Positions 374 through 7,575 of a stretch of DNA of 64,000 bases are shown here, one piece after another. The number at the start of each line of letters is the position of its first letter. The stretch's first letter is position 1. The notes beneath the pieces were generated by a model. The model had not been told where the DNA came from, did not search any database, and saw only the letters and a program-made list of their open reading frames with translations. Both the position numbers and the translations under genes were made by a program. This DNA comes from Nitrospirota bacterium (GTDB lineage: Bacteria > Nitrospinota_A > UBA7883): the NCBI GenBank assembly GCA_024275315.1, contig JAJRZK010000027.1:1-64000 (forward strand). The letters run 5' to 3'.

Positions 374-527
374 TTTGGGAAGAGTTGTATACTATACCAA
401 CCCACGCACTCATTCAACAGCTTTGTGCGGCAGAAACCGCGCGTCCCGGCCGGTGTCAATCGACAGGTAACGGTCATCCGGTAAATATCGGTTGACATCT
501 GTTAACCAATAGCACTATATTTGCCAA

Positions 528-690
528 AGCCGGTGACCTCACGAGAGGATTGAACAGGGAAAGGTGGTGCGATTCCACCGTGGACCCGCCGCTGTGATCG
601 GGGACGAAAGCCGCTGGATACCACTGCGAAAGTTCGCGGGAAGGTGCGGCCGGTAGGTTGATCCGTAAGCCAGAATACCTGCCCGGCGTT
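528..690 (+). promoter_or_regulatory. Cobalamin riboswitch 1 (upstream member of a tandem pair)
   Basis: The order of conserved blocks matches the B12-element: an AGGGAA-like block, a GTGCGATTCCAC hairpin, GGACCCGCCGCTGTGA, a central CCACTG, GGGAAGG, and the 3' box with GATCCGTAAGCCAGAATACCTGCC-type sequence (about 660-683). It is followed by an antiterminator/terminator pair (734-787), which suggests transcriptional control. There is no gene between it and the second riboswitch, so both should act on the btu operon. Confidence 0.92.
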
Positions 691-733
691 TTCCTGAAAT
701 GCGCTTTACGTGGAAAAAGTTTCGGGAATATGG

Positions 734-787
734 CCGGGATTGAAATATCGGAATCCCCGGGAAAGAAATTTCCCGGGTTTTTTTTTT
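734..787 (+). terminator. Intrinsic terminator with overlapping antiterminator stem
   Basis: Terminator: CCCGGGAAA (756-764), a GAAA tetraloop (765-768), TTTCCCGGG (769-777), a perfect 9-bp stem followed by ten T residues (778-787). An alternative stem is visible: CCGGGATT (734-741) can pair with AATCCCCGG (752-760) with one bulged base, which would consume the left arm of the terminator. This is a classical mutually exclusive pair downstream of riboswitch 1. Inference: ligand binding favours termination. Confidence 0.9.
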
Positions 788-844
788 GGTGTAATTATCG
801 AGGAGGCGCCCGAAAGAACAGAATTAATCGACCAACTTTTGAAT

Positions 845-992
845 TCAGCTGTTTTGTGAGGCAAGGGAAGGGAGTTTAACGCTTCCGCCGCCCCGCGACT
901 GTAATCGTGACGAACGCCAGATAAAGCCACTGCCCCTAAAGAGGGTGGGAAGGCTGGTTAGTAGGTTGACCGTTAGCCAGGATACCTGCCGC
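845..992 (+). promoter_or_regulatory. Cobalamin riboswitch 2 (proximal to btuB)
   Basis: This is a second full B12-element: AGGGAAGGGAG, then GCCGCCCCGCGACTGTAA, AAGCCACTG, GGTGGGAAGG, and the 3' box GACCGTTAGCCAGGATACC followed by TGCC. It ends about 45 nt before the btuB start codon. No T-run terminator lies between it and the GGGAGGAG ribosome binding site at about 1021-1028, so translational control is the likely mode. It shares the core with riboswitch 1 but differs through most of the variable arms, so it is not a recent exact duplication. Confidence 0.92.
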
Positions 993-1038: not shown

Positions 1039-3030
1039 ATGAATAAAGTCTATTTATATCTTTTTCTCGTATTGTCTATTTTTATGACCTCGCCCCAGCT
1101 GGCCGGCGCCGTCGACACGGCTGACACAGCCAACACGGCTGACACAGCCGACACGGCTGGCACAGCCGATACAGCTGACGCAAAGGATGAGAAGAGCGAT
1201 GCAACAATTGTTGTAACAGCCACAAAGACCAAGGCCAACGCCAAAACAGTAGGTAGCGCCTTTACGATCATCACCAGCGAAGAAATAGAGAAAAAACAAG
1301 CCAGGACCGCCATAGATGTCCTGCGTTCCGCGCCGTCGGTCGACGTGGTTCAGACAGGCGGCCCCGGCGGCTCGGCCGCCATTTTCATACGAGGCGCCAA
1401 AAACGAGCATACGCTGGTTTTAGTCGATGGTATCGAGGTTAACGACCCGACATCTGTCGGGCGCAATTTCAACTTCGCCCATATCCTCGCCTCCGACATA
1501 GAGAGAATAGAGATAATCCGTGGTCCACAGAGCACCGTGTACGGCTCCGACGCCATGGGCGGTGTAATCAACATAATCACCAAAAGAGGCAAGGGCGCGC
1601 CAGTAATGAGCGCCACCGTGGAGGGGGGCTCGTATGACACCTCCAGCGCCACCGCCAGCGCCAGGGGGAGAACAGGCTCCATCAATTACTCGATCACCGC
1701 CACCCGGTATGTTACGGACGGCATCTCCTCCGCCAATGAAAAAGATGGCGCCATCGAAAGCGACGGCTACAACAACACCTCCGCCGGACTTAACGTTGGC
1801 TTTGATCCCACCGACGCGCTCAGCTTCAACCTGACGCTGAAATATATCGACGCCAACGGCGACATCGACGCCGGTGGCGGAGTGGGAGGAGACGACCCCA
1901 ACTTTACAATGGAAACCAAGGAGCTTTTCGCAAAGGGGGATATCTGCCTGCTTCTGTTCGATGACAGGTTCGAGAGCAGGCTCAGCTATTCCACCGCCAC
2001 CTTCGATCGCGGATATTTCGACGCCACCGACGACGCCCACCCGCAGGACAGCTCCAAAAACACCTTCAACGGAAGCACGACAAAGATCGAGTACCAGGGC
2101 AACCTTTACCTGGCAGACTGGAACACACTTACCCTGGGTGTGGAATCGGAGACCGACAAGGCCGAATCGGTGTACGAGTCCGAGAGTTCCTATGGCCCGT
2201 TCAGCAGTGTGTTCGACAACAAGGAGCTGAGCAATATCGGTTATTACATACAGGAGCAGATCAATCCCCTGGGATCGCTGTTTCTGACCCTCGGCTCCAG
2301 GGTGGACAGTAACAGCGAGTTTGGAACCCATACCACCTACAGGGCCACTGTCGCATACCTGGTGGACGCCATCGGAATCACCATCAAGGGTTCTTACGGC
2401 ACCGGTTTCAAGGCGCCATCCCTGTTCCAGCTATATTCGCAGTATGGCGACGAGAACCTCTCTCCTGAAACGAGTTTGGGCTGGGATATAGGTGTCGAAA
2501 AGAAGTATGATCATCGTAACGCGACCATTGGTGTCGCTTACTTTTTCAACGAATTCAAGGACCTGATTGATTACGATTTCGGCGACAGCAAGTACAAGAA
2601 CATCGGAGAGGCCGAGACCAACGGCTTGGAGATATATGGACAGATCGACTTGCTGGACAACCTGCAGGCCAGGGTCGCCTACAACAAGACGGACACGAAA
2701 GACCGGCAAACCGAAGAGGCCCTGCTCAGAAGGCCGAAGGACAAGATCAGCGTTGACATGAACTACGCCTTTCTGCCCGGCGCGAACGCCACCGTCTCGT
2801 ACTTGAGAGTGGGAGAGCGCGAGGCCAACGACTATTCGACGTACCCGTCCGTCAGGAAGCAAATGGACTCCTATTCCATCGTTAATCTGGCCGCATCATA
2901 CGCGGTCAATAACTCGATCAAGGTATTCGGCAAGGTCGAAAACCTCGGTGACGCGGAATACGAGGAAGTGCTCGGGTATGGAACCGCCGGCAGATCGTAT
3001 TACGCCGGAATAAACGTTGTTCTGAAGTAA
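1039..3030 (+). CDS. btuB: TonB-dependent outer-membrane cobalamin receptor
   Basis: This is a 663-residue outer-membrane beta-barrel transporter that would import vitamin B12 using TonB energy. Visible parts in order: a signal peptide (about 1-24), a low-complexity Asp-Thr-Ala repeat tract (26-47), the TonB box TIVVTAT (56-62), a plug domain with IDVLRSAPSVDV and GAKNEHTLVLVDGIEV, and a long barrel. The C-terminus ends VVLK, not in the usual aromatic residue. I prefer the ATG at 1039 over the GTG at 1030 because the GGAGGAG ribosome binding site lies about 10 nt before it. The gene heads an operon behind two cobalamin riboswitches, which supports the B12 substrate over other TonB-dependent ligands. 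The repeat tract is itself an 18-nt tandem palindrome array inserted in frame. Confidence 0.93.
   Translation: MNKVYLYLFLVLSIFMTSPQLAGAVDTADTANTADTADTAGTADTADAKDEKSDATIVVTATKTKANAKTVGSAFTIITSEEIEKKQARTAIDVLRSAPSVDVVQTGGPGGSAAIFIRGAKNEHTLVLVDGIEVNDPTSVGRNFNFAHILASDIERIEIIRGPQSTVYGSDAMGGVINIITKRGKGAPVMSATVEGGSYDTSSATASARGRTGSINYSITATRYVTDGISSANEKDGAIESDGYNNTSAGLNVGFDPTDALSFNLTLKYIDANGDIDAGGGVGGDDPNFTMETKELFAKGDICLLLFDDRFESRLSYSTATFDRGYFDATDDAHPQDSSKNTFNGSTTKIEYQGNLYLADWNTLTLGVESETDKAESVYESESSYGPFSSVFDNKELSNIGYYIQEQINPLGSLFLTLGSRVDSNSEFGTHTTYRATVAYLVDAIGITIKGSYGTGFKAPSLFQLYSQYGDENLSPETSLGWDIGVEKKYDHRNATIGVAYFFNEFKDLIDYDFGDSKYKNIGEAETNGLEIYGQIDLLDNLQARVAYNKTDTKDRQTEEALLRRPKDKISVDMNYAFLPGANATVSYLRVGEREANDYSTYPSVRKQMDSYSIVNLAASYAVNNSIKVFGKVENLGDAEYEEVLGYGTAGRSYYAGINVVLK
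1110..1180. repeat. 18-nt tandem palindrome array inside btuB
   Basis: Three units with an 18-nt period (hairpins at 1119-1131, 1137-1149 and 1155-1167) plus a degraded fourth. The unit core is GGCTG-ACA-CAGCC, a 5-bp stem with a 3-nt loop (GCA in unit 3). The period is a multiple of three, so the reading frame of btuB is preserved and encodes repeated Asp-Thr-Ala. It sits between the signal peptide and the TonB box, where a flexible insertion is tolerable. Confidence 0.85.
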
Positions 3031-3052: not shown

Positions 3053-3679
3053 ATGAACGATCTGTTGCTTGTACAGTTGTTCTCAAAAGGCGGCCCGGTT
3101 ATGTGGCCCCTTTTGGCCCTATCACTGCTATCGCTCACCATAACCGTGGAGCGGACGATCTTCTGGATAAAGGACGCCGGCCGACAAAACGATGAAACCG
3201 TCCGGGACCTTTTGACCATGGTCGAGGCGGGTGAAATCGACAAGGCCCTTTCGATGGGAGCGGAGTCACGCGATTCATCTGTCCGGGCGGTCGCGTCGGG
3301 GCTGGAGCATTTCGACGCCGGATTTGAAAAGATCACGCAGATGGCCGCCCAAAACGAGATCAGCCGGATGCGGCAGGGGTTGGTGGTGCTCGACACCATC
3401 ATCACCCTGGCCCCGCTCCTTGGCATACTGGGGACGGTGACAGGCATTATCAATTCTTTCGATATGCTGGGCCAGAGCAATGTTCTCGATCCCAAAGTTG
3501 TCACGGGAGGAATAGCCCAGGCGCTGATAACCACGGCCGCCGGGCTTACAATAGCCATCGCCACCCTCATTCCATTCAACTTCTTTGTCTCCAGAACCCA
3601 GGCCGCCACAAACCGGATGGAGCTGTTGGCCACCTCCGTTGAAGTGGCCCTGGATAAAGTCGCCAGGACGAAGCGATGA
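3053..3679 (+). CDS. exbB: ExbB/TolQ-family proton channel protein
   Basis: A 208-residue integral membrane protein of the MotA/TolQ/ExbB family, which with ExbD converts proton-motive force into TonB movement. Three hydrophobic segments are visible: near residues 12-32, a second pair around 120-145 (ITLAPLLGILGTVTGIINSF, the diagnostic family signature) and 160-185 (ITTAAGLTIAIATLIPFNFF). It begins 22 nt after btuB, and its end overlaps exbD by ATGA, so it is translationally coupled. Operon position assigns it to energising BtuB. Confidence 0.92.
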   Translation: MNDLLLVQLFSKGGPVMWPLLALSLLSLTITVERTIFWIKDAGRQNDETVRDLLTMVEAGEIDKALSMGAESRDSSVRAVASGLEHFDAGFEKITQMAAQNEISRMRQGLVVLDTIITLAPLLGILGTVTGIINSFDMLGQSNVLDPKVVTGGIAQALITTAAGLTIAIATLIPFNFFVSRTQAATNRMELLATSVEVALDKVARTKR

Positions 3680-4077
3680 AGATCAGCAGCGGATATGAAC
3701 AGCGTCACGCGAGGGTGGAGATACTGCCCCTTATAGATATCATATTCCTGTTGCTGGTCTTTTTCATCTACTCCATGCTGTTGATGACCGTTCAATATGG
3801 TGTCGATGTCAATCTCGCCACGTCCGCGAACATGGAGGTGGACAGGACAAACAGGATAAATATCAGCATAACTTCAAATAACGAAATATTCATCAACGGC
3901 AAGCCAGTGGATCAGGGGTCCCTGCTTGCAAAGCTGGAGAGCCTGGGGGCGCGGGCCGGGGCGCCGATTCTTCTCAACGGTGATGTAAAAGCCGATTTTG
4001 GCGTTGCTCTTGAAATATTTGACCAGCTAAGAGAGGCCGGATTCGGCTCTGTGGCGCTTGGATACAAAAAGGAATAG
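3676..4077 (+). CDS. exbD: ExbD/TolR-family biopolymer transport protein
   Basis: A 133-residue protein with a short cytoplasmic N-terminus, one membrane helix (about 15-38) containing the family-specific PLIDIIFLLLVFF stretch with the conserved Asp that carries the proton, and a periplasmic domain ending in the FDQLREAGFGSVALGY motif typical of ExbD/TolR. The start overlaps the exbB stop (ATGA). It is followed within 6 nt by the likely start of tonB. Confidence 0.93.
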   Translation: MKISSGYEQRHARVEILPLIDIIFLLLVFFIYSMLLMTVQYGVDVNLATSANMEVDRTNRINISITSNNEIFINGKPVDQGSLLAKLESLGARAGAPILLNGDVKADFGVALEIFDQLREAGFGSVALGYKKE

Positions 4078-4082
4078 GGAAA

Positions 4083-4790
4083 CTGGATAACAGGAAGCTT
4101 GGCGTATCATTTTTTATCGCGGTGGCGTTGCACGGCCTTGTGTTGCTCGCATGGCCGTTTAGTGGCCGGTCGGAGGTTGTCGCCACAGCCGGGACAACAA
4201 AATCGTTAAAGGTGAATTTTACCACCATACAAACGGAAACAAAAAAACCCGAGCCGATAAAGAAAAAGATTCCGGAAAAAACAGGGAAAAAAGAAATAAA
4301 CAGGCCGGTTGCAAAAAAACCAAAACCTGTAAAGAGAATCGTAAAAAAGGTTAAAGCTCCGGTTGTCGGGAAAAAAGCTCCGCCAGAGCCGATGGAAAGT
4401 CCGGCGCCACCTCCGCAGGAGACAGTTACAGACGCCGCGGAGTCCGCCCCGGAGCCTGCCGAATCAGATTTACCCCGATTAGCCAAAGCCCACGCTCCGC
4501 CAGTTACAATAGCCGATCGCGCGGCGTCCATCGTCGATCTGCCCGAGCCGAAATATCCGAGGAGCTCTGTAAGGTCGGGTGAGAAGGGGATCGTGGTGTT
4601 GCAGGTCGAGATCATGGCCGACGGGACGGCTGGCAGGGTCGATGTTGTCCGGTCCAGCTCTTACAGGAGGCTCGATTCCGCCGCTGTCAAGGCGGTTGGA
4701 AAAGCGAAGTTTCAACCTGCCGTCAATAACGGCAGGACCGTTTCTTCGACCATAAAAATCACCATCAGGTTCGAGCTCAAAAACTCATGA
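4083..4790 (+). CDS. tonB: TonB energy-transducing protein (probable CTG start)
   Basis: A TonB homologue of about 235 residues. A membrane anchor (FFIAVALHGLVLLAWPF, about 9-25) is followed by a long Lys/Pro-rich periplasmic linker with EPIKKKIPEK and APPPQE segments, then a C-terminal domain with PKYPRSSVRSGEKGIVVLQV, the typical TonB fold that touches the receptor TonB box. The GTG at 4122 would start inside the membrane helix. Extending upstream in frame gives LDNRKLGVSFFI starting with CTG at 4083, preceded by AGGGAAA, and no ATG/GTG/TTG is available before it. I therefore infer a CTG start, just after exbD. The family call is firm; the start is less so. Confidence 0.88.
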   Translation: MDNRKLGVSFFIAVALHGLVLLAWPFSGRSEVVATAGTTKSLKVNFTTIQTETKKPEPIKKKIPEKTGKKEINRPVAKKPKPVKRIVKKVKAPVVGKKAPPEPMESPAPPPQETVTDAAESAPEPAESDLPRLAKAHAPPVTIADRAASIVDLPEPKYPRSSVRSGEKGIVVLQVEIMADGTAGRVDVVRSSSYRRLDSAAVKAVGKAKFQPAVNNGRTVSSTIKITIRFELKNS

Positions 4791-4850
4791 ATTGTCCAAC
4801 TATGCTTAACGCGGTTAACCAGACACAACAACGGAGCGATTCACCGGCTT

Positions 4851-5786
4851 ATGGATAAGGGGAAAGCCGCCCTGGCTTTGGCTATACTGGCCTCCTTCGG
4901 GTTGGCGTTTTGGGGAAAGTCCCTGATAAGGGATAATGGCGCCACCGCGCTTGAATTGGCCAGCAAGACCAACCGGAAGCCGAGTTGCGAGAAGATTGTA
5001 TCGCTGGCGCCAAGCATCACCGAGACGCTGTTCGCACTTGGTCTTGGCGGCAAACTGGTTGGAGTGACAACCTATTGCGACTTTCCGCCGGAAGCGAAAA
5101 AAATAAGCAAAATCGGCGGCTATTTCTATCCCAACAACGAAGCCATTCTCGCCCTCAAGCCGACCATTACCATGATTCTGTCTGTTCACGACGCGTTCAA
5201 GCAAAGGGCCAGGGAACTGGGAATAAACACCATCATGCTCAACAACCAGAGCGTGAGCGGTATACTCAAGTCGATAGAAATAATCGGGAACACCTGCGGA
5301 GCGCAGGATAGGGCCGAAAAGGTAAACGCCGGATTGAGGGCGAGGATCGATAAGATACAGAAGAAAACAGAGGGCCTGCCGCGGCCAAAGGTGTTGATAT
5401 CGGTAGGCCGTAATATGGGTAGCGGTGGGTTGACCGATATATACATCGCCGGCGAGGATGGATTCTTCAACGAGATGATCACGCTCTCCGGTGGCGTGAA
5501 CGCATTTTCCGGATCCACGTCCAGGTTTCCCGTGGCTTCCGACGAGGGGATATTTCAAATCAACCCCGATGTGATCATAGACATTGTTCCGGACCTGGCC
5601 CAATTGCCTGTCACCGAGGAGGATGTTTTGGAGCAGTGGCGCTCGTTGCGCCAGGTAAAGGCTATAAAAAATGGGAGGGTTTATATTTTCGGAGACGATT
5701 TCGCCGCAAAGCCGGGGCCGAGGTTTATCATGATACTTGAAAAACTGGCGAGAGCCGTGCACCCTGAAGTGAATTGGGACAGCTAA
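4851..5786 (+). CDS. btuF: Periplasmic cobalamin-binding protein
   Basis: A 311-residue ABC-transporter solute-binding protein of the BtuF/FepB-type cluster. It has a hydrophobic N-terminal export signal (ALALAILASFGLAFW), then CEKIVSLAPSITETLFALG, the signature start of BtuF-like proteins. VGVTTYCDFPPEAKKISKIG and NNEAILALKPTITMIL follow. The mature protein would capture B12 in the periplasm and hand it to BtuC. Its stop codon overlaps the next start (TAATG), so btuD is coupled. The start ATG at 4851 follows a 60-nt gap after tonB. Confidence 0.9.
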   Translation: MDKGKAALALAILASFGLAFWGKSLIRDNGATALELASKTNRKPSCEKIVSLAPSITETLFALGLGGKLVGVTTYCDFPPEAKKISKIGGYFYPNNEAILALKPTITMILSVHDAFKQRARELGINTIMLNNQSVSGILKSIEIIGNTCGAQDRAEKVNAGLRARIDKIQKKTEGLPRPKVLISVGRNMGSGGLTDIYIAGEDGFFNEMITLSGGVNAFSGSTSRFPVASDEGIFQINPDVIIDIVPDLAQLPVTEEDVLEQWRSLRQVKAIKNGRVYIFGDDFAAKPGPRFIMILEKLARAVHPEVNWDS

Positions 5787-6562
5787 TGGAAACCGCCATA
5801 GAAATAGATAAAGTCGGCTACGAGATAACAGGCAAAACCATTCTGCGCGATGTGTCCTTTACGGTACGTGAGGGAGAATACATTTCCATTGTCGGGCCCA
5901 ACGGCGCGGGCAAGACGACACTGCTGAAAATGATGTCCAAAATATTGCCCGTAACCATCGGCGATATCTATGTTTACGGATCTCCCCTGGCAGCGTACTG
6001 TCAAAAAAAGCTCGCTAAAATCATCAGCTATGTTCCCCAGGGCGCGGGGGCCATGTTTCCATTTTCCGTGCTGGAGTTCGTGATGATGGGCCGTTATCCG
6101 CACCTGAGTTCATTTATAAAAATCTCCGGCGAGGACAGGCGTGCGGTTTACGCCGCGATGGAGATGACTAAAATCACCCAGTTCGCCGAGAACCCGATAA
6201 ACATCCTGAGCGGCGGCGAGCGCCAGAAAGTTTTCATAGCCGCCGCGCTTGCCCAGGGGGCCAGCATGATGTTGCTCGACGAACCGACGACGTTCCTCGA
6301 CCCGAAAAGACAGTCGGAGATCAACTCCATTCTCAAAAACATAAACAAGGAATCAAACATCACCATAGTCTCCGTCACGCATGATATAAACCATGCGATT
6401 TCGTCCAGCGACCGGATCATCGCGATGAAGGATGGCTGTGTCGTGTTCAATGGCGCGCCGACAGAGCTCATGGGAAACAACAACCTGGAGCGGATATTCG
6501 ATATTTCGTTTCACTTTGCGATCAGCCCGGACAGGGATCACCCGGTTTTATTTCTGGAATGA
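5786..6562 (+). CDS. btuD: Cobalamin ABC transporter ATP-binding protein
   Basis: A 258-residue ATPase of the FecE/BtuD/HmuV group. The Walker A is GPNGAGKTT, the Q-loop follows YVPQGAG, the signature motif is LSGGERQKV, the Walker B is MLLDEPTTFLD, and the switch His is in VTHDINHA. It starts with the ATG overlapping the btuF stop (TAATG) and its own stop overlaps the btuC start (ATGA). It supplies ATP hydrolysis for inner-membrane B12 import. Confidence 0.92.
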   Translation: METAIEIDKVGYEITGKTILRDVSFTVREGEYISIVGPNGAGKTTLLKMMSKILPVTIGDIYVYGSPLAAYCQKKLAKIISYVPQGAGAMFPFSVLEFVMMGRYPHLSSFIKISGEDRRAVYAAMEMTKITQFAENPINILSGGERQKVFIAAALAQGASMMLLDEPTTFLDPKRQSEINSILKNINKESNITIVSVTHDINHAISSSDRIIAMKDGCVVFNGAPTELMGNNNLERIFDISFHFAISPDRDHPVLFLE

Positions 6563-7575
6563 TAAAAGCAGACAAACTAAAATTCTTTTTTCTCACCCTC
6601 ATCGCGCTGTCAATAGGCACGTTGGCCCTGGCGCCCTTTATCGGCATGACAAAGGTTACGCTGGCCATGCTGACAGACGCCGCCCATACCGGAATCGAAA
6701 AAGATATATTCTGGAGGATCAGGGCGCCGAGGACGCTGGTCTCTTTCATCGCCGGGTGCGGGCTGGCCCTCAGCGGCATGGCGTTTCAGGCCATGTTCCG
6801 AAACCCTCTCGCCACACCTTTTACACTGGGCGTGTCGGCTGGCGCCTCCCTTGGCGCGGCGATCTATGTGCGGCTCGGCATGGTGTTCACCATAGCCGGC
6901 GCTTCCGGAATATCCATATTCGCCTTCATGGGAGCGCTTCTATCCATCGCACTGCTGTATGGCCTTACCACTATGAGCAGAAACTTCTCTACCGCCACAA
7001 TGCTCCTCGCCGGAGTGGCGATCAGTTTCTTTTTCTCCAGCGTGATCCTGTTCACCCAATACATATCCGATTTCACCCAGTCATACAGGATTGTCCGTTG
7101 GCTCATGGGCGGATTCGAAGTCTCCGGTTTCGACAGTTTCTTCAACATGTTTCCATTCGTCATGACAGGCGGAGCCATATTGATCTATATGACCAGGGAG
7201 CTTAACCTGATCACCACCGGCGACGAAATCGCCACCAGCCGCGGGGTGGATGTGGTCAGATCAAAAAACATTGTCTTTTTCGCCACCTCCATGATGGTCG
7301 GTGGTGTGGTCGCCATCAGCGGCCCCATCGGTTTCGTCGGCATGATGTCGCCCCATATCTGCAGGCTGATCATCGGCCCGAACCATCGATTCCTCACACC
7401 AGCCACCTTTCTTTTCGGTGGCTCGTTCCTGACAATCTGCGACACCATCGCAAGAACAATAATAGCCCCGGCGGAAATACCCGTCGGTGTGGTGACCGCT
7501 CTTATCGGAGGTCCCTTCTTCGTATGGCTACTGCTGAGCGGAGTGTTAAACAAAGGGATTTTTTACGACAGCTAG
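6559..7575 (+). CDS. btuC: Cobalamin ABC transporter permease
   Basis: A 338-residue polytopic permease of the FecCD/BtuC family, with roughly ten hydrophobic segments. Family landmarks are RAPRTLVSFIAGCGLALSG, the run FRNPLATPFTLGVSAGASLG, and GPIGFVGMMSPHICRLIIGP, the last being the coupling region that contacts BtuD. It is the last gene of the btuB-exbB-exbD-tonB-btuF-btuD-btuC operon; there is no clear T-rich terminator immediately after it. Confidence 0.92.
   Translation: MIKADKLKFFFLTLIALSIGTLALAPFIGMTKVTLAMLTDAAHTGIEKDIFWRIRAPRTLVSFIAGCGLALSGMAFQAMFRNPLATPFTLGVSAGASLGAAIYVRLGMVFTIAGASGISIFAFMGALLSIALLYGLTTMSRNFSTATMLLAGVAISFFFSSVILFTQYISDFTQSYRIVRWLMGGFEVSGFDSFFNMFPFVMTGGAILIYMTRELNLITTGDEIATSRGVDVVRSKNIVFFATSMMVGGVVAISGPIGFVGMMSPHICRLIIGPNHRFLTPATFLFGGSFLTICDTIARTIIAPAEIPVGVVTALIGGPFFVWLLLSGVLNKGIFYDS

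Follow-up and report, generated by a model that had tools for sequence, protein, structure and literature searches.

Two cobalamin aptamers lie in series ahead of a btuB-like gene

We analysed a 64,000-nucleotide stretch of DNA from a Nitrospirota bacterium (contig JAJRZK010000027.1, positions 1 to 64,000; hereafter the window), in which two elements of the cobalamin riboswitch family RF00174, termed RS1 and RS2, lie one after the other on the forward strand upstream of a gene for a BtuB-like vitamin B12 receptor. In an Rfam cmscan of the whole window, RS1 (514-701, 97.4 bits, E = 4.6e-23) and RS2 (842-1007, 95.3 bits, E = 1.8e-22) each match model positions 1-189, with scores about three times the gathering score (31.5 bits) and high posterior accuracy along the full model; the only other match above the gathering score is a tRNA. 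The original prediction had placed two cobalamin riboswitches in series at 528-992 and had named a covariance-model search as the test that could refute it. Both elements pass this test, and the location stands, while the extent was slightly narrow at both ends (the matches run 514-1007). Both precede a btuB-like gene and a tonB/exbBD/btuFCD-like operon, the position upstream of B12 transport or synthesis genes that is expected of cobalamin riboswitches.

RS1 is a class-I cobalamin aptamer whose L5 region reads ACCCGCC (584-590). RS2, assigned to a subtype (RS-B) from the tree described below, has no counterpart of the optional hairpin that can stand between outer stem and P3; across P5-L5-P6 it carries the RS-B signature GCCGCCCCGCGACTGTAA (887-904), with L5 as CCCCG at 891-895.

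A promoter (TTGACA-18-TATATT, 492-521, forward strand) with 11 of 12 consensus bases precedes the pair, placing the expected transcription start near 528. Since the outer model positions of RS1 overlap the -10 box, its first bases are probably untranscribed. This is the only promoter-like site in a scan of 374-1100 (shuffled sequences gave a mean of 0.5), with none between RS1 and RS2, and the sole terminator-like site in the same scan is 756-777 followed by T10. Because one promoter-like site lies upstream and one terminator-like site is present, the two aptamers, as predicted from sequence and with a putative ligand, are most simply read as parts of one leader.

Expression platforms of RS1 and RS2

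RS1 is followed by an intrinsic terminator (CCCGGGAAA-GAAA-TTTCCCGGG then T10, 756-787) with nine pairs, a GNRA loop and a folding energy of -15.4 kcal/mol. Two candidate antiterminators compete with it on paper, one pairing 734-741 with 752-760 (fold of 734-760, -7.9 kcal/mol) and the other pairing 720-726 with 756-762 within a -9.9 kcal/mol fold of 720-762, and both use the 5' arm of the terminator. The strong terminator and overlapping antiterminator previously proposed to follow RS1 are thus found, and together they make up the platform by which the first element of a bi-mechanism riboswitch pair is recognized. Upstream of these stems a candidate P13 hairpin (CUUU-ACGUGGAA-AAAG, 704-719) with a weak stem presents GUGG in its loop (710-713), which may kiss L5 by pairing with CCGC at 586-589; most other first members of the pairs described below have GNGG(A) at a similar distance. 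A kissing P13 placed instead at 720-745 was rejected on its fold (+3.9 kcal/mol).

The platform of RS2 lies at the ribosome binding site. Hairpin P13 (1012-1029; stem 1012-1018/1023-1029, loop GAGG at 1019-1022) encloses the Shine-Dalgarno sequence AGGAG (1024-1028) upstream of the btuB ATG at 1039, in agreement with the proposal that RS2 runs into the btuB ribosome binding site, and no terminator follows RS2 in the scan to 1100. A platform of this kind without a terminator is what would characterize the second, translational element of a bi-mechanism pair. The hairpin is supported both by its fold and by covariation over 13 loci that carry the RS2 signature (see below). In the alignment of the 13 sequences 93.6% of cells are paired, a figure that leans upward as the hairpin was chosen by eye before counting; more weight falls on the two-sided changes, which occur in five of six pairs and number 16 (0-8 for slid versions of the hairpin). 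The covariation score is 0.630, compared with 0.332 +/- 0.049 for shuffled and at most 0.387 for slid alignments. The P13 loop is G[ACU]GG at every locus. Because the search pattern itself specified L5, the L13-L5 kiss lay outside the reach of covariation.

A translationally blocked message can also undergo Rho termination. RS2 might on that account be transcriptional as well, acting through termination in btuB that is either early or dependent on Rho, with the effects of two same-mode riboswitches multiplying at one level, and published adenosylcobalamin (AdoCbl) doublets have indeed been filed as pseudo-cooperative (PMC9481103). We regard such a same-mode pair as unlikely, however, given that no intrinsic terminator was found after RS2 and that all 13 loci have a conserved, covarying hairpin at the Shine-Dalgarno sequence.

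The tandem arrangement recurs ahead of btuB

Sixty relatives were searched and 40 loci rescanned in full. Besides the window, the only same-strand pair was found in G054. This genome belongs to another phylum, apparently one of its own to judge by how genomes are listed in the search, and its second aptamer has the RS2 signature too. None of the other searched members of the window's phylum has a pair; a lone RS2-type aptamer occurs in G012 only. When sought in 385 genomes (apparently covering most bacterial phyla with a few genomes each, judging from their listing), the 18-base signature GCCGCCCCGCGACTGTRA was found in six; a further 297 genomes from the phylum of G046 yielded seven signature loci in six genomes. 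The total of 13 loci in 12 genomes spans about five phyla. At nine loci (the window, G054, G250, G114, G486, G735, G571, G732 and G682) the signature aptamer is the second member of a pair of B12 aptamers, and at four (G012, G381, G720 and a second locus in G735) it is not; with the three signature-defining loci left out, seven of ten are tandem. The gene that follows is btuB-like at 12 of the 13 loci, among them all nine tandem loci, and btuF-like at the other. A terminator with a T-run follows eight of the nine first members, including RS1.

In G381 (L091, G381:C92) an ordinary aptamer stands at the head of what appears to be a single btu operon (166-329) and an RS2-type aptamer directly before btuB (3182-3366), the two being similarly oriented, 2.9 kb apart, and separated by btuC- and btuD-like genes. 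At the btuF locus of G735 (L089, G735:C162) a sequence (GGGGAATCCTGTGTGAATCAGGGAC, at about 1320-1370 of the signature strand) that resembles a cobalamin aptamer's 5' half sits upstream of the intact RS2-type aptamer and is possibly a decayed first member. This fragment is the kind of observation that would be expected if only one aptamer of the window were active and the other were a remnant still fitting the family model. We nevertheless give that explanation very little credence, as each of the two window aptamers has a full-model score roughly three times the gathering score and a high posterior accuracy, and the platforms of both are intact.

The spacer between RS1 and RS2 contains a Shine-Dalgarno-like element (ATCGAGGAGGCG, 797-808, forward strand) with no start codon at the usual spacing. 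Similar elements precede the signature of the second aptamer by 80-115 bases at about seven of the 13 loci (the window, L077-L081 and L087), the strongest form being AAAGGAGGTG, a full complement of the 16S rRNA 3' end. No common pairing partner for the element was found across the loci, and its use by a short upstream open reading frame was rejected because, with G381 as a possible exception, a start codon is missing at the usual spacing.

The two aptamers belong to different lineages

In a tree built with the signature columns masked, a single clade (support 0.994) unites 11 of the 13 second members, RS2 among them, and excludes RS1; the remaining sequences in the tree were those of the first members and of the window's own phylum. 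With RS2 inside this clade and RS1 outside it, a local duplication of one riboswitch was ruled out, and the pair is, as judged from this tree, therefore two lineages brought together and not a recent duplication. On balance we favour a broader reading as well, in which RS2 belongs to a distinct btuB-linked cobalamin riboswitch lineage, marked by the signature GCCGCCCCGCGACTGT and by a GNGG loop in the P13 at the Shine-Dalgarno sequence. In about five phyla this lineage would serve as a translational stage placed second to a separate, transcriptional cobalamin riboswitch, the two forming a conserved and apparently undescribed two-stage B12 device.

The separate origins of RS1 and RS2 would also suit a two-input gate in which each responds to a corrinoid of its own (AdoCbl and some other cobamide, for instance), instead of one ligand read twice; the missing hairpin between the outer stem and P3 of RS2, and its L4 (UUUAACG, against the consensus UGcaAau), point the same way. 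However, both aptamers match RF00174 with an intact core, L4 of most other second members begins UG like the consensus, and cobalamin riboswitches are reported to respond broadly to corrinoids (PMC9600662), so that we consider such a gate very unlikely.

A proposed two-stage mechanism

Judged from the nucleotide sequence, the leader probably works as a B12-sensing device of the bi-mechanism kind, carried on a single transcript, with RS1 acting on transcription and RS2 on translation. The original prediction had assigned the same two modes, the second as probable, and the terminators of eight of nine first members, together with the compensatory changes in P13 over 13 loci, argue for both assignments. 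The ligand binding, direction of each switch and kissing-loop coupling that we infer would operate as follows. At a high level of adenosylcobalamin or a related corrinoid, RS1 would bind the ligand during transcription and deny formation of the antiterminator, RNA polymerase would stop at 756-787 and the whole uptake operon would be off. Transcripts that escape would reach RS2, which in its ligand-bound state would hold P13 (loop GAGG against L5 CCCCG) so that the btuB Shine-Dalgarno sequence is buried and btuB translation blocked. In the absence of B12 both platforms would open and the receptor would be made. RS1 would thus make a single, irreversible decision on transcribing all seven genes, while RS2 would provide later control of btuB translation.

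Several observations weigh against this account. The RS1 P13 is a 4-bp stem only, and either of the two candidate antiterminators could form. The RS2 L13-L5 kiss contains an A-G mismatch (GAGG with CCCCGC), its P13 is weak alone (-6.5 kcal/mol), and P13 of several relatives lies next to the Shine-Dalgarno sequence without covering it. The first member in G732 has a hairpin without a T-run.

Relation to known tandem riboswitches

Bi-mechanism pairs have been defined in a review that gives S-adenosylmethionine (SAM) examples (PMC9481103), and the first of tandem riboswitches has been predicted to be transcriptional, with the second free to be either (PMC12452182). Like the SAM-II/SAM-V tandem (PMC9481103), the window pair would read one ligand at two levels, but its ligand is putatively a cobalamin and its two aptamers are of one class, where those of the SAM pair are of two. 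Tandem AdoCbl riboswitches likewise place two AdoCbl aptamers in one leader (PMC9481103, PMC2258182). The review counts 26 such doublets under pseudo-cooperative systems with separate platforms, and these platforms were not comprehensively evaluated there (PMC9481103); some of the 26 may be of the window's type. The window pair differs from them in that its predicted modes differ and its second aptamer stands in a sequence lineage of its own tied to btuB. The translational, single btuB riboswitch of E. coli (PMC2258182) resembles RS2 as a cobalamin aptamer controlling ribosome access to btuB, whereas the window has a predicted transcriptional riboswitch ahead of the translational one.

The original prediction, correct in fact and most likely in mechanism as well, had also called mixed-mode B12 pairs unusual. 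This holds in so far as multiple aptamers occur in under 1% of AdoCbl leaders (PMC2258182), but about five phyla have this layout ahead of btuB, and the arrangement is rare among cobalamin leaders yet not a one-off. No description of a mixed-mode AdoCbl pair was found in the open-access literature searched. Most documented bi-mechanism pairs respond to SAM, and the recurrence of a cobalamin version would mark transcription-then-translation reading of one ligand as a general solution. It would also supply natural pairs whose stages can be knocked out one at a time, as well as loci such as G381 with the two stages at different genes of one operon.

The downstream operon and other features

The btuB-like gene (1039-3030, forward strand) encodes a 663-residue TonB-dependent receptor, its ATG lying 10 nucleotides past the Shine-Dalgarno sequence. 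It matches the NCBIfam vitamin B12 receptor family TIGR01779 best of 32 families, at 342.7 bits, below the cut-off of 599.7, and has Pfam plug and barrel matches; a scan of genome contigs with BtuB returned only three distant receptors. The rest of the operon (3053-7575, forward strand) continues with exbB- (3053-3679), exbD- (3676-4077) and tonB-like (4122-4790) genes and btuF- (4851-5786), btuD- (5774-6562) and btuC-like (6559-7575) genes, giving the order btuB-exbB-exbD-tonB-btuF-btuD-btuC.

Only three RF00174 copies are present in the whole genome, RS1, RS2 and one on contig C17 (L056, G000:C17, 1846-2036). The third lies ahead of an adenosyltransferase-cobC-cobU-cobT-cobS operon for corrinoid adenosylation and nucleotide-loop assembly, a content that fits a corrinoid importer at the btuB operon. 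With the btu and ton genes and this operon together, the organism looks able to import and finish corrinoids.

Upstream of the leader, the tRNA identified by cmscan occupies 373-299 on the opposite strand, and the start of the contig holds two short tandem-repeat arrays (1-175 and 218-295) with units of 24 bases (GCAGTGAAATCTGGTCTGCCCACG-like) and 17 bases (GTTGCGGGTAAACACCC-like).
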